64,000 nucleotides of DNA from Sphingobacterium athyrii (lineage in GTDB: Bacteria; Bacteroidota; Bacteroidia; Sphingobacteriales; Sphingobacteriaceae): contig NZ_QCXX01000004.1 in NCBI RefSeq assembly GCF_003071065.1, positions 620,614-684,613 on the forward strand, read 5' to 3'. Under the pieces are notes generated by a model that did not search any database, was not told where the DNA came from, and saw nothing but the letters and a program-made list of their open reading frames with translations. Shown here piece by piece: positions 16,576-40,326 of the stretch (position 1 is the first letter of the stretch; every line of letters begins with the position of its first letter). Position numbers and translations under genes: made by a program.

Positions 16576-16732
16576 TATGAAATAATCGCTGTTTAGCATG
16601 AAGAATTGCGGCGGATTACGAAGGAGCATGAGCGTCATTAAAACTGCAGAGGACCGCAATAAACGCTTTAATGGGACAATAAATTCATGGATAACAAACT
16701 GAGCATAGCGAGCTCATGAAATAATTATTGAT

Positions 16733-22512: not shown

Positions 22513-23646
22513 ATGATGAAGAAAATATTATTACTACTGCTTTTGGGCTGTGGAACAGGAGTGACGATTGCCCAGGATTTACCAGCTAAGTCTACGATTG
22601 TCCGTGAGTTGCGTTCTGCTAATGACTATTTTATGAAGAAATGGCCAGATCCAGTCAAAACCATTATTACAAATAAAGAAAGACCGGCCAATATCTGGAC
22701 CCGCGGTGTGTATTATGAAGGACTCATGGCATTTTATAAAATCGATAATCAAAAACGCTATTATGATTATGCGGTAGAATGGGCCGAAAAGCATCAGTGG
22801 AAACCCGTCCGCGGTGAAGTGTATACGCGACATGCAGACAATCAAAACTGTGGAATGACCTATATTGATTTATATCGTATTGATCCCAAACCTGAACGTT
22901 TGGCAGCGATTAAAGCAAATATAGATGCTGTCATTAACAGTGGACGATATGATGACTGGACCTGGATAGATGCCATTCAAATGGCGATGCCGATCTTTGT
23001 CAAACTGGGCGTAACGTTAAATGATACCAAATATTTTGACTATATGTATAAGATGTACAGTCATATTAAATATCAGGAAGGTGGACATGGTCTCTTTAAT
23101 CCGAAAGATAACCTGTGGTGGCGCGATAAGGATTTTATACCGCCCTATGCCGAACCTAATGGTGAAGACTGTTATTGGGCACGCGGAAATGGCTGGGTCC
23201 TCGCTGCTTTGGCTTTGGTGCTTCAGGAATTACCGAAGACAGATGCACATTACATGGAATATCTGGATGATTTCCAAAAATTAGCGAAAGCATTGCTCCC
23301 CTTGCAAAGAACTGATGGTTTTTGGAATGTAAGTTTGCATGACCCAAATCATTTTGGCGGAAAAGAAACTTCAGGTACGGCGTTATTTGTGTATGGAATG
23401 ACCTGGGGGATAAATAATGGGCATCTAGCAAAAACGGACTTTTTGCCAGCAGTAGCAAAAGGTTGGAATGCAATCTCAAAGGAATCATTACAACCAAATG
23501 GTTTCTTAGGATACGTGCAATCTACAGGAAAAGAGCCGAAGGATGGACAACCGGTCACTGTTGACAAAGTACCGGATTTTGAAGACTACGGGCTCGGCTG
23601 TTTTCTATTGGCAGGCACTGAAATATATAAACTTGCGAAAAAATAG
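22513..23646 (+). CDS. GH105 unsaturated rhamnogalacturonyl hydrolase
   Basis: The 377-residue product is a GH105/GH88-type (alpha/alpha)6 barrel with a signal peptide (about 1-21). It contains RPANIWTRGVYYEGLMAFYKI (about 57-77, the family opening; key residues WTRGVYYEG), the HADNQNCGMTYIDLY block, the DDWTWIDAIQMAMP block with the probable catalytic Asp153, and ARGNGWVLAALALVL (about 224-238). GH105 enzymes add water to the unsaturated galacturonic acid left at chain ends by pectin lyases, freeing it from rhamnose or galacturonate. Translation can start at either of two adjacent ATGs (22513 or 22516). It ends the first enzyme operon; a terminator follows. Confidence 0.92.
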   Translation: MMKKILLLLLLGCGTGVTIAQDLPAKSTIVRELRSANDYFMKKWPDPVKTIITNKERPANIWTRGVYYEGLMAFYKIDNQKRYYDYAVEWAEKHQWKPVRGEVYTRHADNQNCGMTYIDLYRIDPKPERLAAIKANIDAVINSGRYDDWTWIDAIQMAMPIFVKLGVTLNDTKYFDYMYKMYSHIKYQEGGHGLFNPKDNLWWRDKDFIPPYAEPNGEDCYWARGNGWVLAALALVLQELPKTDAHYMEYLDDFQKLAKALLPLQRTDGFWNVSLHDPNHFGGKETSGTALFVYGMTWGINNGHLAKTDFLPAVAKGWNAISKESLQPNGFLGYVQSTGKEPKDGQPVTVDKVPDFEDYGLGCFLLAGTEIYKLAKK

Positions 23647-23652: not shown

Positions 23653-23685
23653 GGCTATCCAACTCTTTGGGTAGCCTTGTTTTTT
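23653..23685 (+). terminator. Intrinsic terminator after the first enzyme operon
   Basis: GGCTATCC (23653-23660) pairs with GGGTAGCC (23669-23676) with one G-U pair; the 8-nt loop is AACTCTTT and the tail is TTGTTTTTT. Confidence 0.82.
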
Positions 23686-23861: not shown

Positions 23862-25313
23862 ATGAAAAGACAGTGTCTATTTTCTTTTGGCGCTTTGGCT
23901 ATGATTCTTCTTTCTTGTTCCAAAGATGCACTTGTTTCCAGATTGGAATGGATTGAATGGGCTGAAAATAATGCTACAACTGACGGCGGAAGGCTACTCG
24001 CTTTTCCTGGGGCAGAAGGCTTTGGCCGTTTTGCTGCCGGGGCTAGGGGAGCAGCAACACCAAGTGTCTATTTTGTAACAAATCTGGATGACAGCGGTCC
24101 AGGCTCGTTTCGCGATGCGGTAAGCAAGCCTGGGCGTTTTGTATTGTTCAATGTATCCGGTATCATTAAATTAAAATCTAATCTAGCCGTTGCCGCAAAC
24201 ACCACCATCGCCGGACATACGGCGCCAGGCGATGGTGTGGTCCTATATGGAAGGAAAGTTTCTTTTTCTGGCTCAAATGGGACGATTGCACGCTTCGTTA
24301 GGATCAGGCTCGGCGCAAATGCCGGGGCCGGGAAAAGTGATGATGCATCCGGTATTGCCAACGGAAAAAATATCATGCTCGACCATATGTCTTTTACCTG
24401 GGGACTGGATGAGGTGTTCTCCATAAACTGGGATAACAAAGGTAACGAGCCAGATAGTATTACCATCCAGAATTCAATCATTGGGCAGGGGCTACATCGT
24501 CATAATCACTCTGCCGGCGGCTTGATACAGACTGGAGGGAAGATATCTATTATCAAATCACTTTATCATAGCAACAAGACTAGAAATCCGAAAGTGAAAG
24601 GCATTAATGAATTTGTCAATAATGTAGTTTATAACTTTGGCAATGCCAATACAACCTATCCCGATCATGCCATATCTGCAGATGCTTACATTCTTGGTGG
24701 TGAATCCTCCGGAGAGTCTAATGTGACCATCTTAAATAATTATTTTGTGGGCGGTCCGTCAACCCCAAAGACAAAAGGAACCCCATTTTCTAGAGGAAAC
24801 GGCAACTTTAATCTCTATCAGTCGGGAAATTATTTTGATAATAATCAGAACGGAAAGCTGGACGGAGAATTAATCGAAGCTACAGCGGCCTGGTACCCGG
24901 GGCTAGCTGCAGATAATTTTAAAACAGCCGACTTCTACGAGACCTACCCCACCTTGAGGCCCAAAATGAGCGCTAAAAAAGCGTATGCCTACCTGATTGA
25001 TCATGTCGGTGCCACCTTGCCCCAAAGAGATCAGGTTGATGCTTTTTTAATTCAGGAATTACAGAGCAAAGGCACACTCGGATTTTATACCTATCGCGAA
25101 TCGGATCTTCCTTTGGACAATGGCGGGTTGGGCAGATTTGAATCTGCCGATCTACCGATGGATTCGGATGGAGATGGAATACCTGACGAATGGGAAGTAA
25201 AGTTAAAGCTTGACACAAATAATAGTGCTGATGCCTTGCAGTCAAGTAAGCATCCTTTGTTCAAGGGCTATTTAAATATTGAAGCTTATTTGATCTTGTT
25301 AGCGCAAAAATGA
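23862..25313 (+). CDS. PL1-type pectate lyase lipoprotein with C-terminal calcium-loop motif
   Basis: A 483-residue protein with lipobox LLSC (Cys19), so probably anchored to the outer membrane. The catalytic beta-helix starts at FPGAEGFGRFAAGARG (about 48-63) and shows the PL1 pattern: DDSGPGSFRDAV, TTIAGHTAPGDGV (114-126), the DDASGIANGKNIMLDHMSFTW calcium/substrate block (about 160-180; key residues DDA, DH, W) and RNPKVKG (241-247) with the likely catalytic arginine. Near the end a DSDGDGIPDEWE motif (434-445) is a thrombospondin/dockerin-like calcium loop. PL1 enzymes cleave polygalacturonate by beta-elimination, making the unsaturated ends used by the GH105 enzymes here. It is the first gene of the FAS1/SusCD operon. 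Confidence 0.9.
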   Translation: MKRQCLFSFGALAMILLSCSKDALVSRLEWIEWAENNATTDGGRLLAFPGAEGFGRFAAGARGAATPSVYFVTNLDDSGPGSFRDAVSKPGRFVLFNVSGIIKLKSNLAVAANTTIAGHTAPGDGVVLYGRKVSFSGSNGTIARFVRIRLGANAGAGKSDDASGIANGKNIMLDHMSFTWGLDEVFSINWDNKGNEPDSITIQNSIIGQGLHRHNHSAGGLIQTGGKISIIKSLYHSNKTRNPKVKGINEFVNNVVYNFGNANTTYPDHAISADAYILGGESSGESNVTILNNYFVGGPSTPKTKGTPFSRGNGNFNLYQSGNYFDNNQNGKLDGELIEATAAWYPGLAADNFKTADFYETYPTLRPKMSAKKAYAYLIDHVGATLPQRDQVDAFLIQELQSKGTLGFYTYRESDLPLDNGGLGRFESADLPMDSDGDGIPDEWEVKLKLDTNNSADALQSSKHPLFKGYLNIEAYLILLAQK

Positions 25314-25390
25314 GATAGTTTAACGTGCTATCATTAACCACAATTATAAACCAATGCCAGTAATAATAACTTGGCACATTTAAATTTTTT

Positions 25391-27589
25391 ATGAAAAGAC
25401 TATTCATCTATTTTATTGGTGTCAGTTTAGCCTGTTCGTATTCCTGTTCCAAAAAGGAACTTGTCTCGCACTATGAGAGACCAGATTGGCTGAAAGGCAA
25501 CGTTTGGGAGGTTTTGGACAATCGGAAAGAATTCTCCATTTTTTTAAAAGGTGTCGAACGTGCTGGTTTTAAAGAAATATTGAATGGCAAGACAATCGTG
25601 TCCGTCTTTGCGCCTAGCGATCCAGTGTTTTTGAACTATCTGAAGGACAGAAACCTGACCTCAATAGAACAGATCCCTATCAACGAATTGAAAAAGATTA
25701 TCGGTTATCATCTTATTTATTATTCCTATGATAAGAGTCGACTGATGAATTATCAACCACAAGGGAGCCAAAATGTACAACCTGCTTTTGCGGGTCTGTA
25801 TTATAAGCATCGTACCAGGAGTCAGGATTCTATCAGTGAAGAAATTGATGCAACAGACGGAAAGTTGAAAAAAGTATATCATAAGGACCGGTTTGTGCCC
25901 ATTCTTTCGACAACACATTTTCAAACGAAAGGAATTGATGCGAAGCAGAATTATGAATATTTTTTCGGATCAGAAAGTTGGTCTGGAGAAAATGGTTTTA
26001 ATGTCTCGAATGCCGGAATTACGGAATATGATATTCCAGCGGATAATGGTTATGTGTATGTGGTCGATCAGGTAATTGCTCCCTTACCAACCATTTATGA
26101 ACGTTTGGCTCAAAGTGCAACCTACAAGGATTTTTTGTCTGTTTATGATCGTTTTCGAAACTATACATATGATGAACAAGCGAGTATAAACTATGCGGCG
26201 GCAGGAGACTCCTTATTTTTAGTTAACTATGGTGCCTTACCCGCAATTGCTTCAGAATGGTCGTATAACGGTGAATCAGGTATCCCAGACTACGCCAATC
26301 TCGGAGATCTTTCTTATAAAGCTTTTAATGTATTTGCGCCCAACAATCAAGCTTTGTCTACTTTCTTTAGTCAATATTTTAAAGCCTATTACCCTTCCAT
26401 GAAAGATGTGGACATGTTGCCTTTGGCCATGATGCTACGAAACCATGTATATGCGGGAAACGTGGTCTTTCCTGCTGAAATCGGTAAAAATCCAGATATT
26501 AAAACAGTCGATGGAATTCCTATTGTTTTCAATACACAATCGGATGTGGGAGATAAAGCAATCGCCTCCAATGGAACATTTTATGGTTTAAATAAAGTCT
26601 TAATTCCCGAAGCTTTTAATAGTGTAACGGGACCGGTGATGGTCAATCCGAAATATAAAATTTTTATGTATATGCTGTATAACTCTGGCATGTATAAAAC
26701 GTTGTCGAGTAGAGATATACGTTACACGCTGCTGATTCCGTCCGATGAAGAAATTCTAAATACACTTTATGGCGATAGCTATATCTTCTGGAATGAAGGT
26801 AGTCCTTTGATCTTTGGAGATGAAGAGGTGCAGATTCAAAATAACGATGGCGTTAAAGTAGCCATGTCGCAACGTCAACAGGAACTGTTTGTTTCCGAAC
26901 ATATTGTGTATGATGATATCACCAATTTGGCGGGTACCAAAGTGTACCGGACCCGAAATCCATATAACTATATATTTACGAAAGATGGAAGCATGTATTC
27001 GACAGCTAGCTATAATAGCAATGAGGCAGTATCCGTGATGCCAATCGCGGGAAATTGGTATAATGGAAAGAGTTTCGAAGCAGCTCAAACTTTGTTGGGA
27101 GAAACGCGAACGATCAAGTTTACGTTGATCGGCGCTGAAGCCAGTAGCAACCCCCTAAATAAATACGCAGAATTCTCGAAGTTATTGGCGAAAGCAGGTA
27201 TGATTGATGCAGGTAGTTCGCTTTCCTTTCTTTTTGGTAATCGCTTTATACTGTTCGCACCAGACAACGCTACCGTTTTGTCAGGTATCGCCGCAGGTCT
27301 CATTCCAACAGATAAAACAGCCCTGACGGAATATCTCAAATCCTATTTTGTTTCTATTGCTGACAATTCTCTTGGCGATTATCCTTTTCCGGGTTTTGGC
27401 ATCCAAGGAACCTGGAATACGACACGAAGAACAGGTTATAACGTTTATCGGCAGCTTACCTTAGTGGATCAGGGGACAAACTTGCGCCTGAAAGATTCGG
27501 ATGGGACGAGCATTCCGATCGTAGAATATCTGCCACAAGTATTTAATGATGGGGCTGTCTATCATATTAATAAACTTTTAAAGCCATAG
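25391..27589 (+). CDS. Multi-domain fasciclin (FAS1) surface lipoprotein
   Basis: A 732-residue lipoprotein (signal with SYSC, Cys19) built from about four fasciclin-like units. Their hallmark strands are visible: TIVSVFAPSDPVFLNYL (about 69-85), AFNVFAPNNQALSTFF (about 315-330), RYTLLIPSDEEILNTLY (about 444-460) and RFILFAPDNATVLSGI (about 618-633); each is followed by an H-type strand such as LRNHVYAGNVVF or VYHINKLL. FAS1 domains mediate cell-surface adhesion and ligand binding. Its place between the PL1 gene and a SusC gene suggests a surface glycan-binding role, which is inference. The N terminus after the lipid cysteine (SKKELVSHYE) resembles that of PL1 (SKDALVSRLE). It is 77 nt after PL1. 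Confidence 0.85.
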   Translation: MKRLFIYFIGVSLACSYSCSKKELVSHYERPDWLKGNVWEVLDNRKEFSIFLKGVERAGFKEILNGKTIVSVFAPSDPVFLNYLKDRNLTSIEQIPINELKKIIGYHLIYYSYDKSRLMNYQPQGSQNVQPAFAGLYYKHRTRSQDSISEEIDATDGKLKKVYHKDRFVPILSTTHFQTKGIDAKQNYEYFFGSESWSGENGFNVSNAGITEYDIPADNGYVYVVDQVIAPLPTIYERLAQSATYKDFLSVYDRFRNYTYDEQASINYAAAGDSLFLVNYGALPAIASEWSYNGESGIPDYANLGDLSYKAFNVFAPNNQALSTFFSQYFKAYYPSMKDVDMLPLAMMLRNHVYAGNVVFPAEIGKNPDIKTVDGIPIVFNTQSDVGDKAIASNGTFYGLNKVLIPEAFNSVTGPVMVNPKYKIFMYMLYNSGMYKTLSSRDIRYTLLIPSDEEILNTLYGDSYIFWNEGSPLIFGDEEVQIQNNDGVKVAMSQRQQELFVSEHIVYDDITNLAGTKVYRTRNPYNYIFTKDGSMYSTASYNSNEAVSVMPIAGNWYNGKSFEAAQTLLGETRTIKFTLIGAEASSNPLNKYAEFSKLLAKAGMIDAGSSLSFLFGNRFILFAPDNATVLSGIAAGLIPTDKTALTEYLKSYFVSIADNSLGDYPFPGFGIQGTWNTTRRTGYNVYRQLTLVDQGTNLRLKDSDGTSIPIVEYLPQVFNDGAVYHINKLLKP

Positions 27590-27634
27590 GCATGATTTCA
27601 TTCGCATTGATTTCATTACCATAAACTAAAATTC

Positions 27635-30600
27635 ATGAAGCTAAATATATTTTTAATGATTACCTGCATTGCTTTTGTGCTACCCGTTTTTGGCCAACCG
27701 GCAAAAGTCTTGACAGGTAGTGTTCAAAGTGTGCAAAACGCGCCTTTGGCAGGGGCTTCCGTTTATATCGAAAACAAGGATAATCGGAGTCTGATGGGCG
27801 CTTCAACAGATAATTTAGGCCAATTCACCATCGCCGTCCCCTCCGGTGAAGGGCTGACTATTGTCGTTGCCTGTATCGGTTACAAAACAACAAAAATACC
27901 ATTTAAGGGACAAGGCAGTGTGATCATCAAACTCGTTAAAGATGATCGGGTGATGGACGAAGTAGTGATTACGAAAGAGAAAGCCAATACTAAAAACAAT
28001 ATGGGGATCAGCTACCGTAATCAGGTTTCGGCGACGGAACGCTTTGATATGAAGGAATTGGAAGCTTTACCTTTTGCATCTATTGAAAGCGGGTTACAAG
28101 GTAGGCTAGCCAACGTTGATATCGTATCCAGTGCAGATCCTGGAGCAAGAAGTTCAATACGTATTAGGGGTACATCTTCATTGAATGGTAATTCCGAACC
28201 GTTGATTGTGGTTGATGGAGTTCCCTATCCAACATCCATAGGCAGTGATTTCAACTTCTCTACTGCAAATGACGAGGATTTTGGCGGTTTGGTCAATATT
28301 TCTCCTAACGATATTGAGTCAATTGAGGTGCTGAAGGACGCAGCGGCCACTGCTATTTGGGGATCCAAAGGAGCAAATGGTGTCTTACTCTTTACGACTA
28401 AAAAAGGGCGGAAAGGTAAAACCCAATTTGCATTGTCCAGCAAATTGGATGTTAAGCGCGAAGCAGAAACCATTCCTATGTTAAATGGAGGGCAGTATGT
28501 TGCGATGGTGCAAGACGCCGTTTGGAATTCAGTGAATGACCTCGGATATAGTGCCGCACTACCCTACCTCAACTTACTCTATAATACTAACGAAATCAAA
28601 TATGATCCGTCATGGGTTTATTTTAATGAGTATAATCAAAATACCAATTGGCTTGACCAGGTAACCCAGGTGGGACATTTCGAAGATAATTCGCTTTCGA
28701 TTAGTGGCGGAGGAGATAAAGCTACCTATAGGCTGTCACTCGGCTTCTTAAATGATGTCGGAACAACCAAAGGGACCAAGCTGAATCGTTATAATTCACT
28801 GTTGAGCCTCAATTATAAATTTTCCAATAAATTTAATATCAATGCCGACATGTCCTATTCCATTAGCGATCGGAAGAATTTTTGGACGGGTGAAGATGTA
28901 AGTACGCCAAGAGGTATGGCAATGACGAAAATGCCAAATATGAGTCCTTACGTCATCGGGGAGGATGGCCAATATACAGATCAATATTTTACGCCTAGGA
29001 TAAACTTTCAGGGTTCATTTGGAGATAACCAAATGTTCAATCCGGTAGCCATGGTGAATGAATCAATCAATAATACTGTCGGCGAGCAGGCAAGAGTCGT
29101 CTTTCGAGGGATCTATAATATTATTCCAGCGCTTCAATATATTGGTACAGTTGGATTTGATACCAGGTCAACGAAAAATCGAAAATATTTGCCGCAGGCT
29201 GTTACCGGAGTTATCTGGACCGATCCGTTCTTCAATAGGGGATCGGATATGCTGTCAGATGAGTTATACCTAAACACCGAGAATAAATTTATATTCAATA
29301 AAAAGATAAAAGAGCATAGCATTGTTGCTACGGGCTTATTACAGACAAATGAAGCACGAAAGTTTAGCTATGCCAGTGAGACATCAGGAAACGCATCATC
29401 ATCTTTAAGTGATCCAACCGCCGGCGGCGCCGTCGTGAATATGGGGTCGGGAAATTCTAAAACACGGAATATCGGTGCGATTTCCAGTTTGCATTACGCA
29501 TATAAGGATCGTTATATCGTCAGTGGTACATACCGTTGGGAGGCCAACTCCAGTCTCTCGGCACAACATCGCTGGAAAGGGTTTCCCTCAATTGGCGCTG
29601 CCTGGCACCTCGGTGACGAAGAATTTATTAAAAAACTAGGTCTTGTCAGTACCGCGAAACTTCGCTTTAGCTGGGGGAAAAGTGGAAATGCCCCTTCGGG
29701 CGCTTTCACTTATTTGGGCACGTTTCAGCCGATCACTCCAGGTTATATTGATATGACTGCTGTGGGACCAGTATCCATTCAATTGGATAATCTTAAATGG
29801 GAGACGATAACTCAAACTGATTTTGGTGTCGATCTCTCTTTCTTTAAAAATAGACTTCAATTTACGGGTGAGCTATATAATCGGGTTACAACGGACCTCC
29901 TACAAAAGGACGTGACATTACCTTCATCCACGGGCTTTGGTAAAATGAGGTATTACAATTCAGGGAAATTAGCCAATAAAGGTTGGGAATTGATTTTCAA
30001 TGCCGAGGCTATCCGCTCCAAAGATTTTGGTCTCTCCATTAATGCGAATGTATCACGCAATAGAAATGAAGTTATTGTACTACCGGATAATATGCAATTT
30101 GAGAACTACAACTTCGGAAACGGTAAATACGCCCATAAAATTATTGAAGGAAATCCCGTTGGCTCATTTTATGGCTACCATTATCTCGGTGTTTATCAGA
30201 ACGAACAAGATACCTATGCAAAAGATTTAGATGGTCAGGTCATTCATGATTTACAGGGACAGCCCGTATTTATGATGAATGGTAACAGGCGGGTATTTGC
30301 CGGCGACGCCAAATACCAGGATATCGATGGTAATGGTCTGATCAATCAATATGACATTGTTTATTTAGGAAATGCAATGCCTTTATTTACGATGGGCGGG
30401 GGAATAAATGTGCGCTACAAAGCATTTGCGCTAAGTACTTTTTTACACGGTAGGTTTGGCCAGAAAGTAGTCAATCAGGTACGGATCAATACGGAGAATA
30501 TGTATGGAACAGCTAATCAAAGTACTGCAGTACTTGGACGATGGCGCCAGGAGGGAGATGTTACTGATATACCGAGAGCGCTATACGGTGAAGGTTATAA

Positions 30601-30874
30601 TTACCTGGGATCGGACCGCTTTGTAGAAGACGCGTCTTTTGTGAGATTAAAAATGATCTCTTTAAAATATGCGCTTCCTAAAAAAGTAATAGAGCGGTGG
30701 GGGTTGACACGGTGTGAAATATTTACCACAGTTCAGGATGTATTTACATGGACCAATTATTCCGGACAAGATCCAGAAGTTTCCCTATCAAGTAATATCT
30801 ATATGTTAAGCCAGGATAATGCAAGCACGCCCCGTCCAAGACGTTTCGCTTTGGGGGTAAATGTAAATTTTTAA
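27635..30874 (+). CDS. SusC/RagA-type TonB-dependent outer-membrane transporter
   Basis: A 1079-residue SusC homologue: signal peptide (about 1-21, ending VFGQ), carboxypeptidase-regulatory-like domain (about 25-105), linker VMDEVVITKEKANTKNN (about 107-123, which lacks the usual VGYGTQ), plug with LKDAAATAIWGSKGANG (about 231-247; Trp replaces the usual Tyr), and barrel ending GVNVNF. It is 45 nt after the four-unit FAS1 gene and 11 nt before a SusD gene. It likely imports oligogalacturonides or related products released by the PL1 enzyme of the same operon; that is inferred from context. Confidence 0.94.
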   Translation: MKLNIFLMITCIAFVLPVFGQPAKVLTGSVQSVQNAPLAGASVYIENKDNRSLMGASTDNLGQFTIAVPSGEGLTIVVACIGYKTTKIPFKGQGSVIIKLVKDDRVMDEVVITKEKANTKNNMGISYRNQVSATERFDMKELEALPFASIESGLQGRLANVDIVSSADPGARSSIRIRGTSSLNGNSEPLIVVDGVPYPTSIGSDFNFSTANDEDFGGLVNISPNDIESIEVLKDAAATAIWGSKGANGVLLFTTKKGRKGKTQFALSSKLDVKREAETIPMLNGGQYVAMVQDAVWNSVNDLGYSAALPYLNLLYNTNEIKYDPSWVYFNEYNQNTNWLDQVTQVGHFEDNSLSISGGGDKATYRLSLGFLNDVGTTKGTKLNRYNSLLSLNYKFSNKFNINADMSYSISDRKNFWTGEDVSTPRGMAMTKMPNMSPYVIGEDGQYTDQYFTPRINFQGSFGDNQMFNPVAMVNESINNTVGEQARVVFRGIYNIIPALQYIGTVGFDTRSTKNRKYLPQAVTGVIWTDPFFNRGSDMLSDELYLNTENKFIFNKKIKEHSIVATGLLQTNEARKFSYASETSGNASSSLSDPTAGGAVVNMGSGNSKTRNIGAISSLHYAYKDRYIVSGTYRWEANSSLSAQHRWKGFPSIGAAWHLGDEEFIKKLGLVSTAKLRFSWGKSGNAPSGAFTYLGTFQPITPGYIDMTAVGPVSIQLDNLKWETITQTDFGVDLSFFKNRLQFTGELYNRVTTDLLQKDVTLPSSTGFGKMRYYNSGKLANKGWELIFNAEAIRSKDFGLSINANVSRNRNEVIVLPDNMQFENYNFGNGKYAHKIIEGNPVGSFYGYHYLGVYQNEQDTYAKDLDGQVIHDLQGQPVFMMNGNRRVFAGDAKYQDIDGNGLINQYDIVYLGNAMPLFTMGGGINVRYKAFALSTFLHGRFGQKVVNQVRINTENMYGTANQSTAVLGRWRQEGDVTDIPRALYGEGYNYLGSDRFVEDASFVRLKMISLKYALPKKVIERWGLTRCEIFTTVQDVFTWTNYSGQDPEVSLSSNIYMLSQDNASTPRPRRFALGVNVNF

Positions 30875-30885
30875 AAAGTAAGCGT

Positions 30886-32352
30886 ATGAAAATAATATAT
30901 AAAATAATGTTGTTGTGTCTACTCTTGCCAGCAACATCTTGTCAAAAATGGCTTGATCTTAAACCACAGAACGAACAGGTCAGTGATGCTTATTGGACCA
31001 ATAAGGCTGAAGTCGAAGCCGTATTAGGTGCGGCTTATGTCAAATTGCAAGGCGCTGTTAAAACTATGTTAGTATGGGGTGAAGGTCGGGGAAATACATT
31101 GAGCTTAGGCGGCTATGTCGACGTCGATCTCTCACGGTTAAAAAACTTCTCCCTTCTACCGACAAACAGTTATGCAAAATGGGGTGAATTCTATCAAATC
31201 ATTAATTACGCGAATATGGTGATAAAATATGCGCCTGCTGTGGTAGAAAAAGATCCTTCGTTTAACCAGGCCACGATGGCGTCATTTTTATCTGAAGCTT
31301 ATTTTCTGAGAGCGCTCAGTTATTTTTATATCGTCAGGAGCTTTGGAGAGGCGCCATTGATCTTAGAACCCTATATGGATGATCAGCAGGCTTACGAATT
31401 GCCAAAATCGTCCAAAGCCCAGCTTTTTGAACAAATTATTCAAGATCTAACGGTCGCCGCAACCAATGGCAAGGAGATCTGGCCTACCGTTTGGGAAACC
31501 AAAGGGCGCTCGACAAAATGGGCTATACAGGCTTTATTGGCAGACGTCTATCTGTGGTTGGGCAAATACGATGAAGCGATTATTTCATGTAATGCAATAT
31601 TGCAATCGGGCAAATATGGACTTATACAAGGAACTGTTAATAACAAAAACAACTGGTTCAGTATTTTTAATCCGGGCAATTCCAACGAAGGAATTTTTGA
31701 AGTCCAATTTGATTATTCCAAGAACCAAACAAATAAATTGATGGAGATATTCGGGTCAAACTATAATTGGATCATATCCAACTACTGTGTATCTCTTTTT
31801 ATAGAAAATGCCGAAGATATCCGCGGTGTAGGGGCGTCTTATGAAACGATTAGCTACAAGCTTTGGAAATATTTAGGGGCAGAGGGAAATACAACAATCC
31901 CTAGACCCTATAGTGATCAAAACTGGATCATCTACAGGATAGCGGATATTTACCTGATGAAAGCCGAAGCATTAATCATGAAAGGAGAAAGCTACTATCC
32001 GCAGGCGGTGGAATTGATAACGGCAATTCGTTCCCGGGCAGCTATATCCAGGCCATTGGAGGCCGGAAGTACTGAATTGGATCTACTGAAAGTCTTAATG
32101 GAGGAGCGGGCGCGCGAGTTTGTCGGGGAAGGAAAGCGCTGGTTTGATTTATTACGCGTAGCACAAAGAGATCAATATAAATATAAGGAATATTTGATCG
32201 AACAAGTGTTATTGGGTGTATCGGGTGCTTCGACCCCCGTCATTAGATCCTTATTGCTCAATGAAAATGCACACTACTTGCCGATTCATGCCGATGAATT
32301 AAAGTATAATAAATTGCTCGTGCAGAACCCGTATTATGAAAACCTAAATTAA
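30886..32352 (+). CDS. SusD/RagB-type surface lipoprotein
   Basis: A 488-residue lipoprotein with lipobox ATSC (Cys19) followed by QKWLDLKPQNEQ, a very typical SusD start. The helical core FLSEAYFLRALSYFYIVRSFG (about 131-151; key residues EAYFLRAxxYF) and the C-terminal MEERAREFVGEGKRWFDLLR block (about 405-424) identify the family. It pairs with the SusC encoded 11 nt upstream, and is followed 7 nt later by a FAS1 lipoprotein gene, so a SusC-SusD-FAS1 surface complex is plausible. Confidence 0.94.
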   Translation: MKIIYKIMLLCLLLPATSCQKWLDLKPQNEQVSDAYWTNKAEVEAVLGAAYVKLQGAVKTMLVWGEGRGNTLSLGGYVDVDLSRLKNFSLLPTNSYAKWGEFYQIINYANMVIKYAPAVVEKDPSFNQATMASFLSEAYFLRALSYFYIVRSFGEAPLILEPYMDDQQAYELPKSSKAQLFEQIIQDLTVAATNGKEIWPTVWETKGRSTKWAIQALLADVYLWLGKYDEAIISCNAILQSGKYGLIQGTVNNKNNWFSIFNPGNSNEGIFEVQFDYSKNQTNKLMEIFGSNYNWIISNYCVSLFIENAEDIRGVGASYETISYKLWKYLGAEGNTTIPRPYSDQNWIIYRIADIYLMKAEALIMKGESYYPQAVELITAIRSRAAISRPLEAGSTELDLLKVLMEERAREFVGEGKRWFDLLRVAQRDQYKYKEYLIEQVLLGVSGASTPVIRSLLLNENAHYLPIHADELKYNKLLVQNPYYENLN

Positions 32353-32359
32353 TGCAAAA

Positions 32360-33973
32360 ATGAAAAAGAATCTTATTCCTCTTTCTAAAATTGTGCTGCT
32401 TTTTATTGGATTATTTTCGATCATACTTACCGCGTGTAAGGATGATTTTGAAAATAATACCTATTCGGCCTACGAAGATTTGCCGATGGCTGTATACCTC
32501 AAAAATCAACCCGAAAAATATGATTTATGGGTGAAAGTCCTCGAAAAAGCAGATTTATACAATACATTAAATATTAATACCATATATACGCTCTTTGCTC
32601 CGGTTAATGAAGGTGTCGAACGATATCTAAAAAAAATGAAGCTGACTTCGGTAGATCAAATGACAAAAGAAGATGCTAATTATTTGGTACGCTATCATCT
32701 TATCCCCAATGTTTCAATTGATCTTGGTCAGTTTCAAAGTGGTGCAATATCAGACTTAAATGCTACTGACGATAATCTGTTCGTTGAATTTAAAGAAGGC
32801 GGATTGGATCAGATCTATTTGAACGGAGTGTCTAGATTTAATGCTTTTGATGTGAAAGTGATCAATGGTATTATCCATGGTATTGACGATGTTTTAGAAC
32901 CGTTGACAGCGACTATATTGGATCGCTTGAAGGATGGTAAGCATAGCATATTTTACGGTTTGGCAACTGCGACAGGATATGACGAGCGATTAAATACGGT
33001 GTATACCACAGGTACGGATCCGGATGGAAATCCAATTCAACAGCGATTCAGATATACCGCGTTTGCCGTAAGTGACGATGTTTATCTGAAAGAAGGTATC
33101 CATACGTTGGCGGAGTTATTAAATAAACTGGGCGCATCGGGTTCGGATCTAAAATCGCCAGAGAATCCTGCCAACCGTTATATGGCTTACCATTTATTAG
33201 CGCAACAACGCTCGTTTGCCGACTTAGGAACATTCCCTGCTGGAGCAACGAAAATGAATTTGGAGACAATGGCACAATACGAGTTGATCAAAATTAGTGA
33301 AGGTGGGGACGGCTTGGTTATCAATGCGACTGGAGATGCTGGTAGCGCTATTCAGTTCAATGAGATTAATATCCCGTGTAAGAATGGGGTAATCCATGAG
33401 GTTGACAGTTGGATGCCAATTTTTGTTCCTGAGCAGGTTAAAGTGGTCTGGGAATTTACAGATTACCCCGATATCGCTGCCAATGTTACACAATACAGAA
33501 ATCCAAGCTTAGGTGCGCAATACAATAAGACCTTTGTTGCGGCTGATCTAAAGAGCATTCTATGGCAGGCGCAACCAGAGACAAAGTTAAATGTCCTGAT
33601 TTATCGTAATAACAGGAGTGCGGATGGTGTTTGGTATACTGGAACACTGAATTATGATCATTTACGCGTGGAGTTGGGAGAATCAGGCTGGATTCAGATG
33701 CAAAGCCCGACGATTGTAAAAGGAAAATATAAAGTGAAGTTGACATGGCCGAGCACAAAATATGCTTCAAATACAGGTATATGTGCCTTTGTGTTAGACA
33801 ACGAAATGATTTATCCGCGATTGGTTATGTCCAATACGAGCTCAGACAAGATCATGTCACAGGATTTAGGAACCGTTGAATTTACTGAAACAACTAACCA
33901 TACCCTGCGCATATTGTCCCTGGATGGTAAATTGCTGACGTTGGATTATATCCAATTTGAACCGATTAATTGA
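32360..33973 (+). CDS. Fasciclin-domain lipoprotein with C-terminal beta-sandwich
   Basis: A 537-residue lipoprotein (lipobox LTAC, Cys26). The first FAS1-like unit spans about 37-185 (IYTLFAPVNEGVERYLKKM, then YLVRYHLIPN, then NGIIHGIDDVLEPL). A second, more divergent unit lies at about 190-350 and ends KNGVIHEVDSWMP. The last 180 residues (VKVVWEFTDYPD to LLTLDYIQFEPIN) form a beta-rich module that looks like a carbohydrate-binding sandwich, with KGKYKVKLTWPS and LTLDYIQFEP strands. This is the architecture expected of a surface glycan-binding protein encoded after SusD. It lies 7 nt after SusD and 30 nt before a third FAS1 gene. Confidence 0.82.
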   Translation: MKKNLIPLSKIVLLFIGLFSIILTACKDDFENNTYSAYEDLPMAVYLKNQPEKYDLWVKVLEKADLYNTLNINTIYTLFAPVNEGVERYLKKMKLTSVDQMTKEDANYLVRYHLIPNVSIDLGQFQSGAISDLNATDDNLFVEFKEGGLDQIYLNGVSRFNAFDVKVINGIIHGIDDVLEPLTATILDRLKDGKHSIFYGLATATGYDERLNTVYTTGTDPDGNPIQQRFRYTAFAVSDDVYLKEGIHTLAELLNKLGASGSDLKSPENPANRYMAYHLLAQQRSFADLGTFPAGATKMNLETMAQYELIKISEGGDGLVINATGDAGSAIQFNEINIPCKNGVIHEVDSWMPIFVPEQVKVVWEFTDYPDIAANVTQYRNPSLGAQYNKTFVAADLKSILWQAQPETKLNVLIYRNNRSADGVWYTGTLNYDHLRVELGESGWIQMQSPTIVKGKYKVKLTWPSTKYASNTGICAFVLDNEMIYPRLVMSNTSSDKIMSQDLGTVEFTETTNHTLRILSLDGKLLTLDYIQFEPIN

Positions 33974-34003
33974 CCGAATTAAATGAGATCTAATTATATA
34001 CAG

Positions 34004-35569
34004 ATGAAAAATATTGTAGGAATTCTCCTGTTGATGCTGGTTGTGGCAACAGGGTGTAAAAAAAATTGGAATGATCATTATGAGGATCAGGGAACCGTTT
34101 CCGATCTAGATTTATTAGCTTATCTGAAAACTCAACCACAATATAGCCTATTCGTCTCTAAGCTGGAAGAATATGGGATTGCAGAAGAGTTGTCACGGGA
34201 TCAAGAATTAACAATCTGGGCCGTACCTAACGATCAGATGGCAGTCTTGGAAGCATCTACAGAAAATAAAGCTTCGATTCTAAAATATCATATCAATAAT
34301 CTAAAATATGATAGCGGAAAGCTCAAAGATGGTTTAAAACTAATTACGTTAAATGGAAAGTACCTGATGGTTTCCCGTAAGGATGATCAGCTGCACGTTG
34401 GTGACGCAGCGCTAACAAAAGCAAATCAATTTTGTAAAAATGGAGTGGTCCATGAAATTGACCAATTGTTAACCCCTGATGTTAGCATCTATGATTATCT
34501 CCGTGGACTTGGAAGCGATTATTCTATCATCAGAGATAGTGTTCTTGCGATGAATGATACTATTTTCGATTTGTCAAATAGTATTCCAATTGGTGTTGAC
34601 CCTACGGGAAATACGCTATACGATTCTGTATTTACCATTACGAATCCAATTTTTGAAAAGGCAAATATTCGCTCGGAATTTGCAAATGTTACGATGTTTT
34701 TACCAAGTAATCAGGTTATTAAAAACTGTTTTGACGACTTAAAACGTCTCTATGATCAATTTGGGAAACAATTTTTGAAAGAAGATTCATTAATCGCCTA
34801 TAGTTGGATCAAAGAGGCAATTTTTTATAATGAAATCATTGATAATTATGGTACGAAGGATCTCACATCGGCATTTAATCGAGTATGGAAGCCAACAGTG
34901 CAACTTGTGGATCCTCAATATAAACGGATGAGCAATGGCCGAATTTTTAATGTTACCAAATTAAAGATTCCCAATAATGTTCATATTCGAATGATAAAAC
35001 AGTTGTTTCATTATTATGAATATGTGCCTGAGCATGAAAAGCCAGATCTATTTACTTTAGCAAATGTGACCGGTATAGAACCAAAAGATCGGGACAAAGT
35101 GTCTTTTCCGACATTGGGAATAGAGTTAACCTATAGAACATTATTGTTTAGGGGCAATATCTCAGATAATCTACCCGCTTCTATCGATTTTACCCCGATT
35201 ATGCTGGAGCGGAAACCAGACGGTTCCACAGGATATAAAGTGGTGGAGGTGCCTCCGGGAGAATATAATCTATATATGGGGTTCTTAGCGAAGAATCATC
35301 CCTTTGTCAATATCTATGTGGACGGCAAACTTATCGCTAAATCATTGAATGTAGAACCAGCTACGCCATGGAATTACGATCGTGCCACAAATACCGTACC
35401 TGGTACGAAATATAATGGCTGGGGCGGATTGGTTGGCCCCCTTGTTATCGAAGGTGATAAAATCCGATCTTTTAAAATAAAAGTTGAATTCGCCGGATTA
35501 GGAAAAGGGACTGTAGAAAATATAGAGCTATATCATTGGGCATTGATCCCAACAGTAAATAATTATTAA
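34004..35569 (+). CDS. Fasciclin-domain lipoprotein with C-terminal beta-sandwich (third copy)
   Basis: From the ATG at 34004 the product has 521 residues and opens with a lipoprotein signal (MLVVATGC, Cys18). The frame is open to an ATG at 33983, but this would add seven residues before the signal, so the later start is preferred. FAS1-like elements include LTIWAVPNDQMAVLE (about 67-81), SILKYHINNL and NGVVHEIDQLLTP. The C-terminal 170 residues are beta-rich (EVPPGEYNLYMGFLAK, PFVNIYVDGKLIAKSL, SFKIKVEFAG), again like a carbohydrate-binding sandwich. It resembles the preceding gene in layout but not closely in sequence, suggesting an old duplication. SusC follows after 4 nt. Confidence 0.8.
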   Translation: MKNIVGILLLMLVVATGCKKNWNDHYEDQGTVSDLDLLAYLKTQPQYSLFVSKLEEYGIAEELSRDQELTIWAVPNDQMAVLEASTENKASILKYHINNLKYDSGKLKDGLKLITLNGKYLMVSRKDDQLHVGDAALTKANQFCKNGVVHEIDQLLTPDVSIYDYLRGLGSDYSIIRDSVLAMNDTIFDLSNSIPIGVDPTGNTLYDSVFTITNPIFEKANIRSEFANVTMFLPSNQVIKNCFDDLKRLYDQFGKQFLKEDSLIAYSWIKEAIFYNEIIDNYGTKDLTSAFNRVWKPTVQLVDPQYKRMSNGRIFNVTKLKIPNNVHIRMIKQLFHYYEYVPEHEKPDLFTLANVTGIEPKDRDKVSFPTLGIELTYRTLLFRGNISDNLPASIDFTPIMLERKPDGSTGYKVVEVPPGEYNLYMGFLAKNHPFVNIYVDGKLIAKSLNVEPATPWNYDRATNTVPGTKYNGWGGLVGPLVIEGDKIRSFKIKVEFAGLGKGTVENIELYHWALIPTVNNY

Positions 35570-35573
35570 TCAG

Positions 35574-38500
35574 ATGAAATTTACGGATCTCATGTTTAGA
35601 AAAAAGAAACTTATTTGGAAACTGTCCATCACCTTGTCATTCTCCATATTCTGTGTGAATAGCTATGCGCAACATAGTATCCAAGGGAAAGTCGTGAATT
35701 CATATGATAAAACTCCGATTGAGGGAGCTGTCATTACCATTTTGAATTCTACACATACGACCAAGACAAAGGGGGATGGAACGTTTTCGTTAGATAAAAT
35801 AATTGAAGAAGCACCGGTAATCCGAGTTTGGAGTCCTGGTTTTTTTGAATCAAGAATTGAGCTGTTAGGACGGAGCCAGATTGAAATAACCTTGGTTTCG
35901 GAGGGACGGGAACATTATGAAAATGTAGTTTCAGGATCTTTCTCATCGGCCAATTCAAGGATTTTGACAGCTAATGATTACCCTAAAGGCGCGACTACAG
36001 TTGAACAAGTACTCAAAGGGCAAATTGCAGGTTTGCGTGTTACCAACAAAAGTGGGATGCCCTCAGAAGGTGGTGCGTTAAATTTTAGAGGAATTCGATC
36101 GTTTGAAGCAAACAATAACCCATTAATTGTGGTCGATGAGGCTCCCTTTTTTCCAGATATGGATAATTCTCCGATTATCGGTGGATATTCGCGGAGTATT
36201 TTCGCCCCATTTAATCTTCAGGACATAAAAAGTATTCGGTTTTTAAAAGGAGCTGAAACGGCTCGTTATGGATCGTTGGGATCCAATGGCGTGTTAAAAT
36301 TGGAAACCTCAGCATCAGATGATATGGAAACGGTCATCGAATACCATGGTAATTTTGGTATCAGCCACCAATTCAGAAGGCTCCCGTTATTGAATGATAG
36401 TCAGTATAAAAGTTATCTTGGCGCAGTGGGGATGACCAACTACAATGATATGGGGGAACTTTTAACACAATTTCCTTTCCTGAAAGATGATCCGAATTAT
36501 TATTATAATTATCTGTACAACAATAAGACAGATTGGCAAGATCAGATTTATAGAAATGCTTTTGTAACAGATCACCATTTAAGGATCAAAGGAGGAGATG
36601 CTATCGCAAAATACGATCTCTCACTCGGCGTATTGAATCAGCAGGGTGCATTGGATTATACGAGCAACACACGATACAGCACCCGCTTGAATTCAACCAT
36701 CGCTTTAGGACAAAAATTCGATTTGAATGCGATGATGGCGTTGACCTATAGTACCGGAAGATTGCAGGAACAGGGTATGCTAAAAACGACTAATCCCATG
36801 CTGGCTGCGATGTATAGAGCACCAATTCTTAGTCCTTATACAAAAGATAAAGACAATAACGTATTGAATGATTTGGATGGTGTTCGGCAATTTGGAGTAT
36901 CCAATCCAATAGCTCTTTTGCAAACTGGCGATTTTACATCAGATATCTACGATGTTTTTGCACAGGCTAATTTACGTTATAGCGCTACAAAAAGTCTCCA
37001 ATTTAATGCCTTGCTCGGATTCTATACAAATTATAGCAGACAGACAACCTTTGTACCGGGACTGTCCAGCGGAACTATTGTGCCTTTGGAAAATGGCATG
37101 GCCTTAAATACTGCGCGGTCTGGTGCGGGCAAATCGTCTAATATCTCATGGAATTTTTATGGAAGTTATTCCAGGCAGTATGGCAAGGATCAATGGGAAG
37201 CAGGTGCCGGTATACAGGGACTTCTGAACAGCCAGGAATACGATGCTGGTGCGGGGAGGAATACGAGTTCCGATTTTTACCGCACACTGAATTACGTAAG
37301 TAACGCTGGACGTAAGTTTTGGGGATACGATGAAGACTGGAATTGGATGAATATGTATGGTTTCCTTAATTACAATTGGCGTAGCTTGTTGAAATTAGAT
37401 GTCAATCTTAGTGTTGATGGCACTTCAGTTACAGGCTCAAATGTCGGAAGGTTTGGGTTTTTCCCAGCTGCGGACTTATCCATTTTGCTATCTAACATGT
37501 CTTTTCTCAAGGAACGTGAATCGCTTAATAAGCTAATTTTGAAATTCGGTTATGCAAAAACCGGAAATAGCCGTTTTTCATCGAAGATTGGACAATCGTA
37601 TTACAGCAGTCAATTATATCGACAACTTGCTGGAATTGTCGTTGGGAATATTCCCAACAATAAAATTAGATGGGAAGATAATCAAAACCTGCAGGGCAAT
37701 CTGATCTTTTCCGGATTCAACCAACGTTTAAACGTGAATGCAGGTTATTATTACAACAGAGCTAGCCATCTTTTGAATGCGTTTTCAGTATCGCCGATAG
37801 CTGGGATCGATAAGATATTCTTAAATGGCGGACAAATCGACAATCATGGTTTGGAAGTAGACGTGAATTTCGCTTTTGTTGATAAAAAAGACTGGTCCTT
37901 TACGCTTGGCGGTAACCTATCCACATTAAACAGCACGGTGAAGAAACTTTTGAGCGTAGACCCCATATTGTTACAGCAGGAAGATGATGTTGTTCGCATT
38001 CATCAAGTAGGACAGTCTCCCTTTTCTTTCTATGGCTATCAATCAAATGGAGTTATAGCTAGCGCTAAAGAGGCCGAGCAATTGAATTTATACGATTATA
38101 AAAATAGAATGTTTTCTGCAGGAGATATTCAGTTTGAGGATATCAATAATGATGGTATTATAGATGCTGAGGATCGGATGGATTTAGGAAATAGTTTACC
38201 CAAATTATTTGGAGGTGCCTATTTCTCATTACGTTACAAGAAGTTTCAATTGCAGGGCCTGATGAGTTTTACAAAAGGAAATAAAGCTTACAATGCCGTG
38301 CGAAGAAGCCTCGAAGACCTGTCCAGTTATAACAATCAATCCATTGCAGCATTGCGCCGTTGGCAAACGGATGGCCAGCAAACGGATGTGCCACAGGCTC
38401 AATATGGAGATCCGATGGAGAATGCACGATTTTCCAACCGCTGGATTGAAGATGCTTCTTATATGCGGTTAGAGAACCTGTCGTTGTCTTATAGGTTTGG

Positions 38501-38690
38501 AAATCATAGACTTAAAATTCTTTCCAATTCGGAATGGTATATCGCTGCTGAAAATCTATTTACTTGGAGCAAATACTTAGGTCTAGATCCTGTAACGGCT
38601 TACAGCAATAATATGAGTTATACAGGTGCTGACTATGGGAAAATTCCATTACCTCGAACTTTTAAATTAGGTGTCAATATTAAACTCTAG
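35574..38690 (+). CDS. Divergent SusC/RagA-type TonB-dependent transporter
   Basis: A 1038-residue SusC homologue with signal peptide (about 12-33, ending SYAQ), a carboxypeptidase-regulatory-like domain (about 34-105), plug and barrel. It is unusual: the region where the other SusC proteins have DEVVVxGYG reads REHYENVVSGSFSSAN, and the plug motif is LKGAETARYGSLGSNG instead of LKDAxAxxYGSxxANG. The barrel end GVNIKL also differs. The fold elements are complete and the frame is intact, so it is not a pseudogene. It starts 4 nt after a FAS1 gene and leads into a SusD gene 7 nt later. An alternative start at 35592 is possible. Confidence 0.9.
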   Translation: MKFTDLMFRKKKLIWKLSITLSFSIFCVNSYAQHSIQGKVVNSYDKTPIEGAVITILNSTHTTKTKGDGTFSLDKIIEEAPVIRVWSPGFFESRIELLGRSQIEITLVSEGREHYENVVSGSFSSANSRILTANDYPKGATTVEQVLKGQIAGLRVTNKSGMPSEGGALNFRGIRSFEANNNPLIVVDEAPFFPDMDNSPIIGGYSRSIFAPFNLQDIKSIRFLKGAETARYGSLGSNGVLKLETSASDDMETVIEYHGNFGISHQFRRLPLLNDSQYKSYLGAVGMTNYNDMGELLTQFPFLKDDPNYYYNYLYNNKTDWQDQIYRNAFVTDHHLRIKGGDAIAKYDLSLGVLNQQGALDYTSNTRYSTRLNSTIALGQKFDLNAMMALTYSTGRLQEQGMLKTTNPMLAAMYRAPILSPYTKDKDNNVLNDLDGVRQFGVSNPIALLQTGDFTSDIYDVFAQANLRYSATKSLQFNALLGFYTNYSRQTTFVPGLSSGTIVPLENGMALNTARSGAGKSSNISWNFYGSYSRQYGKDQWEAGAGIQGLLNSQEYDAGAGRNTSSDFYRTLNYVSNAGRKFWGYDEDWNWMNMYGFLNYNWRSLLKLDVNLSVDGTSVTGSNVGRFGFFPAADLSILLSNMSFLKERESLNKLILKFGYAKTGNSRFSSKIGQSYYSSQLYRQLAGIVVGNIPNNKIRWEDNQNLQGNLIFSGFNQRLNVNAGYYYNRASHLLNAFSVSPIAGIDKIFLNGGQIDNHGLEVDVNFAFVDKKDWSFTLGGNLSTLNSTVKKLLSVDPILLQQEDDVVRIHQVGQSPFSFYGYQSNGVIASAKEAEQLNLYDYKNRMFSAGDIQFEDINNDGIIDAEDRMDLGNSLPKLFGGAYFSLRYKKFQLQGLMSFTKGNKAYNAVRRSLEDLSSYNNQSIAALRRWQTDGQQTDVPQAQYGDPMENARFSNRWIEDASYMRLENLSLSYRFGNHRLKILSNSEWYIAAENLFTWSKYLGLDPVTAYSNNMSYTGADYGKIPLPRTFKLGVNIKL

Positions 38691-38697
38691 AAAACGT

Positions 38698-40326
38698 ATG
38701 AAAAGTTATCATATTCATTATGGCATAGCTGTGCTGTGCTTGTTTTTTACCAGTTGTTCCAAATACTTTGAAGTTAATACCAATGATATTTTGACGGATA
38801 AGGAATATGGAAAGGAAACAAACGAATTATATTCGGGATATATGGGCGTTGCCGCAAAAATGCAGACATTAGCTGATCAAACGGTATTCTTAAGCGAACT
38901 GCGTACAGATCTCCTTGAACCCACCGCAAATGCACCGCAAGATTTGTGGGATCTGTATAATTATAGAGAGAAAAAAGGAAATACCTTTGCCAATCCCCGG
39001 ACTTATTATGATTTGATTGTAAATGCCAATGCTTATTTAGAAAAGATTATGGCATATCGCAAAGCGAATCCAAAGGCGCTGGAAGATGAACATTATAGGG
39101 CATTGATTTCTGGAACTATTCGTTTTAAGGTATGGACCTATCTCACGCTAGGAAAACTGTATGGTAAAGTCGCCTATTTTGATGACCCTAAGATTAACCT
39201 GGATAATGTTGCCACAATTCCCGTGATCTCCTTGAATGAATTGTTGCCTAAACTAGTTTCATTAATGGAAGCAGGACTAGATGGCGTTGATGGTAAGTAT
39301 GTTGCGAACTGGGGAAATATTTTGTTCCCCGGTGTCAATACCAATCAACAGGATCTCACATGGAATATGATCTGTCCATCACCAGAACCGTTGTTAATGG
39401 AACTCTATCTATGGACAAAACAGTATTCAAAAGTTGTCGATATCGGTATCCGCTTTATTTATGACAATGGAAGTAATAAGTTTAAGGTGAGTAATGACGA
39501 TTATAACGGCGAGTGGGTTCAGGTATTTACACGGGATCCAATCACGCGGACAAGAGTATTAATTAATATTGTTCCTTATGATTTCGAAAGAAATCAGACG
39601 AATCGTATGATCCAGTTTTTTTCAAATCTTACACCTTCAGTTTATTATTTAAAACCCACGGAGGTAGCGATGAAGAGATACCAGGAGCAAATTAGGTATG
39701 ACGGTCATACACTGGGCGACCAATATCGAGGCGAGAATTACACCTATTATTTACAGAATGGAGATTGGGTCATTCGCAAGTTCTCCAGAGATCGGGAAAG
39801 TGCATCAGAAATATATAAAAATAACGTGCATATTGTAATATATAGAGATGCTGACGTACATTTTTTTATGATTGAGGCCTTAAATAATTTAGGACTATTT
39901 GACCAGGCGGAAGCGTTACTGAACGATGGCGTAGAGTTGTACCTTTCGCGAAATGCGGGCAATTTAAAGTACCCTTTTGATGATGCGGTGATGAATGTTA
40001 GCCTCGCCAGAAATTGGGGCATCAGGCGTCGGGTCAATCTTGCCCCCGTTTATCCTGAGGGTTTAAGCAAGGACGACTTGTCAACGGTCGAGAAAATGGA
40101 TGCTTATAAAAAAGCGTTGGATAAATTGATTGTTAAAGAAACGTTGATGGAAAGTGCTGGTGAAGCAAAGGCATATTTTGCCCTAATGCGGATTGCCGAT
40201 CGATGGAACGAGCCAGCAATTCTAGCCGATGTAGTTGCGCAAAAATACGCTGCTGGACAAGCGAATCAGATTCATCAATATTTGTTGGATAGAAAAAATT
40301 GGTTTGTTCAATATCCCTTAGAGTAA
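38698..40326 (+). CDS. SusD-like surface lipoprotein (SusD/RagB superfamily)
   Basis: The ATG at 38698 gives a 542-residue lipoprotein with lipobox FTSC (Cys20). The same frame is open from 38671, inside the end of SusC, but that start precedes the SusC stop and spoils the signal. The sequence has SusD-like helical features (TNELYSGYMGVAAKMQ, ISGTIRFKVWTYLTLGKLYGKVAYFDDP, AYFALMRIADRW), although the classic RRxEFxGEG block is replaced by ESAGEAKAYFALMRIADRW. It therefore belongs to a divergent SusD branch, matching its divergent SusC partner. Last gene of the PL1/FAS1/SusCD operon. Confidence 0.85.
   Translation: MKSYHIHYGIAVLCLFFTSCSKYFEVNTNDILTDKEYGKETNELYSGYMGVAAKMQTLADQTVFLSELRTDLLEPTANAPQDLWDLYNYREKKGNTFANPRTYYDLIVNANAYLEKIMAYRKANPKALEDEHYRALISGTIRFKVWTYLTLGKLYGKVAYFDDPKINLDNVATIPVISLNELLPKLVSLMEAGLDGVDGKYVANWGNILFPGVNTNQQDLTWNMICPSPEPLLMELYLWTKQYSKVVDIGIRFIYDNGSNKFKVSNDDYNGEWVQVFTRDPITRTRVLINIVPYDFERNQTNRMIQFFSNLTPSVYYLKPTEVAMKRYQEQIRYDGHTLGDQYRGENYTYYLQNGDWVIRKFSRDRESASEIYKNNVHIVIYRDADVHFFMIEALNNLGLFDQAEALLNDGVELYLSRNAGNLKYPFDDAVMNVSLARNWGIRRRVNLAPVYPEGLSKDDLSTVEKMDAYKKALDKLIVKETLMESAGEAKAYFALMRIADRWNEPAILADVVAQKYAAGQANQIHQYLLDRKNWFVQYPLE

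Follow-up and report, generated by a model that had tools for sequence, protein, structure and literature searches.

Introduction

Canonical SusCD systems such as the Sus, levan and dextran utilisomes combine a SusC barrel, a SusD lid and extra surface lipoproteins. The latter, the surface glycan-binding proteins (SGBPs), are usually too variable to be recognised from sequence, and in the canonical systems their fold is Ig-like plus CBM-like (CBM, carbohydrate-binding module). Here we describe a cassette found in 64,000 nucleotides of Sphingobacterium athyrii DNA (contig NZ_QCXX01000004.1, positions 620,614 to 684,613; this whole stretch is called the window below). It shares barrel, lid and additional lipoproteins with these systems, but it carries two SusCD pairs and three lipoproteins with fasciclin (FAS1) domains, FASa, FASb and FASc, a fold that differs from that of canonical SGBPs. 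We consider it likely that these FAS1 lipoproteins are the SGBPs of an import module for rhamnogalacturonan I (RG-I).

The RG-I locus of Bacteroides thetaiotaomicron (B. theta), PUL77, spans BT4145-BT4183, and RG-I induction and growth have been shown there (PMC3243724). It includes two SusC/SusD pairs, BT4164/BT4165 and BT4168/BT4169, and the RG-I-binding SGBP BT4167 (reviewed in PMC8002723), and a DUF5108 protein is listed within BT4164-69 (PMC10434189). The segment BT4163-BT4169 resembles the window cassette in its two SusCD pairs with two genes between them, its DUF5108 protein and the families of the accompanying enzymes; likewise, a Bacteroidaceae-like genome has orthologous cassettes beside PL11, GH105 and GDSL genes. 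Judging from gene order and published gene tags, BT4163 would correspond to FASa, BT4164/65 to SusC1/SusD1, BT4166 to FASb, BT4167 to FASc and BT4168/69 to SusC2/SusD2, and nothing in these tags contradicts the assignment. By contrast, the open-access papers searched do not call the B. theta lipoproteins FAS1 proteins. More generally, no paper stating that the SGBPs of the import module are FAS1 proteins was found in the open-access literature, subscription papers lying mostly outside the search. One Gramella paper shows a cellulose/hemicellulose-like locus in a figure that marks a FAS1 protein.

A conserved FAS1-SusCD cassette

The conserved unit consists of seven genes in the order FASa-SusC1-SusD1-FASb-FASc-SusC2-SusD2, preceded in the window by a PL1-like gene (Table 1). 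All eight open reading frames (ORFs) lie on the + strand between 23862 and 40326 and are separated, in order, by 77, 45, 11, 7, 9, 4 and 7 nt, the last gap being counted from the ATG at 38698 (the GTG start of this ORF, at 38671, would overlap SusC2). A first, sequence-only reading of this DNA had described eight tightly spaced genes with two SusCD pairs and three fasciclin lipoproteins. This is borne out: all eight ORFs are in place with gaps of 4-77 nt, and Pfam detects SusC/SusD domains as well as Fasciclin above cut-off in the genes starting at 25391, 32360 and 33983. The nearest solved relative of SusC1 is the SusC of 8aa4/9sje. With adjoining susC and susD homologs accompanied by carbohydrate-active enzymes, the window locus belongs to the SusCD-type polysaccharide utilization loci. 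The eight genes look like a single transcription unit, since the upstream GH105 gene ends 215 nt 5' of the PL1-like gene, with a hairpin in this interval, and the next downstream gene lies 585 nt away. Promoter- and terminator-like sites across the region show no excess over shuffled sequence, and the hairpin is suggestive only, because the hairpin count of the region is not above that of shuffled sequence either.

Table 1. Positions in the window of the cassette genes, their domains and the surrounding features
Feature	Position	Strand	Details
Remaining polysaccharide utilization locus in the window	524..20320	+	GH106, two more SusCD pairs, GH43, GH28, DUF4450/GH116-like
GH88/GH105 unsaturated galacturonidase, upstream	22513..23646	+	PF07470
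Terminator-like hairpin	23653..23676	+	10 pairs, T-rich tail; between GH105 gene and PL1-like gene
PL1-like pectate lyase lipoprotein (probable)	23862..25313	+	483 aa, lipobox LLSC
FASa	25391..27589	+	lipoprotein, FAS1 repeats only, 732 aa; Fasciclin above Pfam cut-off
SusC1	27635..30874	+	TonB-dependent SusC/RagA transporter, 1079 aa; TIGR04056 724 bits
SusD1	30886..32352	+	SusD/RagB lipoprotein lid, 488 aa; PF07980/PF14322; PDB SusD homologs
FASb	32360..33973	+	lipoprotein, 537 aa; two FAS1 domains and C-terminal CBM-like module
FASb tandem FAS1 domains	32471..33427	+	residues 38-356, periostin/TGFBIp-like
FASb C-terminal beta-sandwich	33431..33970	+	residues 358-537, DUF5108 (E 5e-10), CBM35/CBM84-like
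FASc	33983..35569	+	lipoprotein, 528 aa; two FAS1 domains and probable CBM-like C-terminus
SusC2	35574..38690	+	second SusC/RagA transporter, 1038 aa; TIGR04056 523 bits
SusD2	38698..40326	+	second, divergent SusD lipoprotein, 542 aa from ATG 38698; PF07980 E 5e-9
Second GH88/GH105 gene, downstream	40912..42069	+	PF07470; 585 nt gap
GntR-type regulator, possible local regulator	42145..43182	+	PF00392

A family-wide generic Fasciclin search returned mostly single-domain FAS1 proteins, and full-length FASb and FASc were used as queries instead. In a phylum sample of 296 genomes (Bacteroidota), full-length FASb relatives (26-30% identity) occur in six other genomes, with FASc relatives a few hundred bases downstream. 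The full seven-gene order was found in 7 loci of 6 genomes of this sample, and a six-gene variant without FASc in two further genomes. A scan of 84,980 genomes with the FASb alignment then yielded 230 relatives, the best 77 loci of which were analysed. Here the seven genes are contiguous, on one strand and in this order in 62 cases, with median gaps of 14-45 nt; 12 more loci are interrupted by a contig end yet consistent with the order, and three deviate. The source genera of these 77 loci include Niastella, Pedobacter, Mucilaginibacter, Chitinophaga, Flavobacterium, Echinicola, Pontibacter, Rufibacter, Fibrella, Leeuwenhoekiella and Zunongwangia. As FASb alone was the query, the scan exerted no selection for the remaining six genes, and recurrence of the same arrangement in scores of genomes means that it is not due to chance. 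Thus, the conserved FAS1-SusCD synteny for which the sequence-only reading proposed to search is clearly present, and the seven-gene cassette is real and conserved.

In the three deviating loci, from Flavobacterium palustre (L150), F. fluvii (L173) and Mucilaginibacter (L158), the FASb relatives stand outside the seven-gene order. Three other Mucilaginibacter loci (L130, L142 and L149) carry an additional FASb 3' of SusD2. Within the window's own genus, a close FASb (57-89% identity) is present in 18 of 92 other genomes and a second type (23-29% identity) in about 20.

A Bacteroidaceae-like family of genomes, so named from gene content, was reached through DUF5108 (PF17133). The complete cassette is found in all 19 loci examined there, SusD1 of one of them (L219), hidden by an antisense ORF, having been recovered by tblastn. 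SusC1 of this branch shares 44-50% identity with the window SusC1, versus about 38% in most other lineages compared. Moreover, a PL1-like gene lies immediately 5' of FASa in 9 of the 19 cassettes, so that the eight-gene layout of the window recurs. In trees of each of the seven genes (86-88 tips), the window sequence and the Bacteroidaceae-like sequences form a clade in seven cases out of seven (support 0.985-1.0). The seven genes therefore share their history at this split, an agreement that covers this one clade and not the congruence of the full trees. One Bacteroidaceae-like locus (G853:C38, about 44-77 kb; L258-L260) holds two complete divergent cassettes, together with PL11, GH105, GDSL and a hybrid two-component regulator.

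Folds of the FAS1 lipoproteins

FASa, FASb and FASc match the FAS1 family PF02469 above its curated cut-off, and structural models of FASb and FASc support this fold. Pfam finds three Fasciclin stretches in the window FASa and four in two Bacteroidaceae-like orthologs. The lipoprotein cysteine is invariant in FASb (Cys26, 47 of 47 aligned sequences) and in FASc (Cys25, 46 of 46), and as lipoproteins encoded beside SusCD the FAS1 proteins of the cassette occupy the place of SGBPs. Acidic residues following the lipoprotein cysteine, inspected as a lipoprotein export signal, are not consistently enriched, and for this reason surface export is not claimed from this signal.

FASb was modelled from 47 sequences with a mean pLDDT (predicted local distance difference test score) of 85.5. 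In the model, its tandem FAS1 domains resemble periostin 5yjg (Z 22.2, root-mean-square deviation 6.3 over 282 residues). Residues 358-537, which belong to the Pfam family DUF5108 (PF17133, E 5e-10), match MiXBM 7ehg, which we take to be the founding CBM84 member, with Z 16.0 and 1.8 A over 129 residues. They also match CBM35 modules (Z about 12.5), among them 2w47, solved with unsaturated galacturonate (Z 12.5). At the level of fold, we are confident from this model that the FASb C-terminus is a CBM35/CBM84-like module, sequence identity being only 10-19% and likeness of fold being no proof of binding.

The FASc model is weaker (mean pLDDT 75.1, and only 35-75 in its C-terminal part). Its tandem FAS1 domains reach Z about 20 to periostin/TGFBIp-type proteins. 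For the C-terminal part, the best matches are generic sandwiches and CBMs (Z 9-11, low model confidence), and those of the protein include toxin and protease domains that share the sandwich fold, taken as fold-level likeness only. FASc would thus probably follow the plan of FASb with a CBM-like C-terminus, at low confidence. Of the two beta-sandwich ends that the sequence-only reading had assigned to FAS1 proteins, that of FASb holds with confidence and that of FASc at a low level. The tandem arrangement of FASb and FASc recalls periostin and TGFBIp (Z about 20-22), with the difference that the cassette FAS1 proteins are bacterial lipoproteins in nutrient-uptake operons.

Linkage to RG-I enzymes

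The surroundings of the cassette are those of an RG-I utilization locus. GH106, GH28 and GH105 are encoded inside the window, and the 20 kb upstream of it in the same genome carry GH2, two GH28, PL11, a GDSL esterase, a sulfatase-family gene and GH105. Elsewhere, cassette flanks in named genomes include GH106, GH2, GH28, GH88/105, PL11, GDSL esterases and hybrid two-component or GntR regulators. Among 29 cassette genomes tested, 28 encode PL11; the distance from this rhamnogalacturonan lyase to the cassette is at most 50 kb in 16 genomes, versus 1.3 expected under uniform placement, and that from GH106 in 19, versus 1.65. Across the phylum sample, 6 of 7 genomes with the cassette give a strong PL11 match, versus 6 of about 270 other genomes (Fisher p = 1e-8); these p-values are too small, because genomes were treated as independent and the uniform null ignores the general clustering of such enzymes, and the effect is still large. 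As cassettes adjoin RG-I enzymes (PL11, GH28, GH105, GDSL, GH106) here and elsewhere, their substrate is most likely RG-I, not polygalacturonate. The ‘pectin import complex’ of the sequence-only reading can therefore be narrowed to RG-I for this locus by its PL11, GH28, GH105 and GDSL neighbors, the term being too narrow for the wider family, which has a relative in probable sialic-acid loci (see below).

The PL1-like protein has no Pfam family above cut-off. It matches NCBIfam PelZ below threshold (E 3e-24) and a single PDB entry, 9buj ‘Pectate lyase’ (E 2.6e-24), and a DH...WG...DE / RNPK pattern is conserved among its homologs. It is thus probably a PL1 enzyme, a label first proposed by the sequence-only reading, which the structural entry and the conserved motifs favor and for which profile support is weak.

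Discussion

In the function that we propose, the cassette would be the outer-membrane capture-and-import module of an RG-I utilization locus. Its two SusC barrels with their SusD lids would import RG-I fragments. FASa, FASb and FASc would stand at the surface beside them as SGBPs, FASb and probably FASc capturing glycan by means of their C-terminal CBM35/CBM84-like modules, and the FAS1 repeats would act as rigid spacers or as surfaces for interaction. Cleavage of the backbone or of attached homogalacturonan at the surface may fall to the PL1-like lipoprotein, and the imported fragments would be finished by the locus's own PL11, GH105, GH28, GH106 and GDSL esterases. Beyond the observed gene content, conserved order, shared history, folds and linkage to RG-I enzymes, we infer that the FAS1 lipoproteins are exposed at the surface, that they bind glycan and that the parts assemble physically into one complex. 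The glycan-binding role is plausible and indirectly supported, by the CBM-like module modelled on FASb and by BT4167, which gene order would place at the FASc position.

The main rival to this SGBP role is that of a scaffold: the FAS1 lipoproteins would bind protein partners, i.e. the two SusCDs and the lyase, in one surface assembly, glycan binding being left to the SusDs. Their tandem FAS1 folds resemble most periostin and TGFBIp, members of a family that binds proteins as well as carbohydrates (PMC6032426); FASa is made up entirely of FAS1 repeats, no CBM-like end being recognised by Pfam, and the maintenance of the seven-gene set with two SusCD pairs would suit a multi-part assembly. We nevertheless regard a mainly scaffolding role as unlikely in the face of the CBM-like module confidently predicted on FASb, and of BT4167, which gene order maps to FASc and which is described as an RG-I-binding SGBP (PMC8002723). 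For FASa, both roles could hold side by side. FAS1 proteins are also classically adhesion proteins (PMC6032426), and could in principle be adhesins or biofilm proteins found beside SusCD genes by accident. Such a coincidence is scarcely credible, as genomes that have diverged widely (FASb 24-30% identity) keep an identical order with a few bases between genes, and as the gene trees concur on the single clade tested.

Another question is the glycan imported. The PL1-like gene directly 5' of FASa, in the window and in nearly half of the Bacteroidaceae-like cassettes, would fit homogalacturonan (polygalacturonate) as substrate instead of RG-I, all the more as the B. theta PL1 BT4116 cleaves homogalacturonan and not RG-I (PMC3243724). 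Yet the neighbors form an RG-I set with PL11, GH106, GH105 and GDSL, and B. theta handles homogalacturonan in a locus of its own, BT4108-24 (PMC8002723), separate from that for RG-I, which renders this substrate improbable. Several points weigh against RG-I import by FAS1-type SGBPs as we propose it. The assignment of the B. theta genes rests on gene order and tags, not on sequence, and the C-terminal module of FASc is poorly modelled. The significance of the enzyme linkage is overstated, as said above; one of the seven cassette genomes of the phylum sample (G156) is without PL11, and neither PL11 nor GH106 lies within 50 kb in 8 of the 29 named genomes. In addition, a six-gene relative resides in probable sialic-acid loci, and the FAS1 layout alone does not specify pectin.

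This six-gene variant without FASc was found in the window's genus (L108) and in another family (L109); the corresponding positions, including L203, are G016:C1, about 45-86 kb, and G412:C1, about 3.168-3.188 Mb. In both loci it is accompanied by a NanA-type (DHDPS family) aldolase, a NanM-type epimerase and an MFS transporter, and L108/L203 additionally have sialate esterase and BNR sialidase-type genes. As sialic-acid genes adjoin both loci, the variant probably serves sialoglycans, suggesting that one architecture has been re-used for another acidic glycan. A wider and more doubtful proposal, which we advance tentatively, is that FAS1-SusCD cassettes might be general surface import machines for acidic-sugar glycans, RG-I mostly and sialoglycans in the six-gene variant, with FAS1 lipoproteins joining the two SusCDs into one assembly and CBM35-like modules presenting lyase-cut or acidic chain ends.

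If BT4167 is indeed FASc, RG-I binding has already been reported for one of the three FAS1 proteins, and, if the B. theta assignment is right, what is new is the recognition of the SGBPs of a phylum-wide import module as FAS1 proteins. FASa, FASb and FASc form a fold-defined set in a fixed gene order across Bacteroidota, by which RG-I import can be traced at sequence level in bacteria from soil, the sea and the gut and in those associated with plants. The cassette also suggests a role for DUF5108, that of a CBM-like module, and it is a compact protein set for asking if two SusCD pairs join with their SGBPs in one assembly.

Other genes of the locus and the genome

The two more SusCD pairs of the same locus (3544-13756) are without FAS1 proteins. 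Between them and the cassette, a 1195 aa DUF4450 protein with a GH116-like region (16733-20320) has a 47% homolog near the L220 cassette. It is followed by a 718 aa protein (20353-22509) with only a weak GH65 match, which may be an uncharacterised RG-I enzyme, since a 45% homolog is encoded directly 3' of the Bacteroidaceae-like cassette L262.

A second FAS1 cluster of the window's genome (L115, G000:C10:519000-538999) was weighed as a possible paralog of the cassette and dismissed, since the genes scanned include no SusD and it shows no close similarity. Unrelated to the cassette, it encodes a TonB-plug protein, a DUF4397 protein, a 433 aa protein without Pfam match, three FAS1 proteins, an IPT/TIG-NHL protein and an OMP_b-brl_4 barrel. 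Finally, two adjoining genes of FKBP-type isomerases of about 200 aa lie at 46628-47948 in the window, with two ORFs of similar length beside them (48016-49401).

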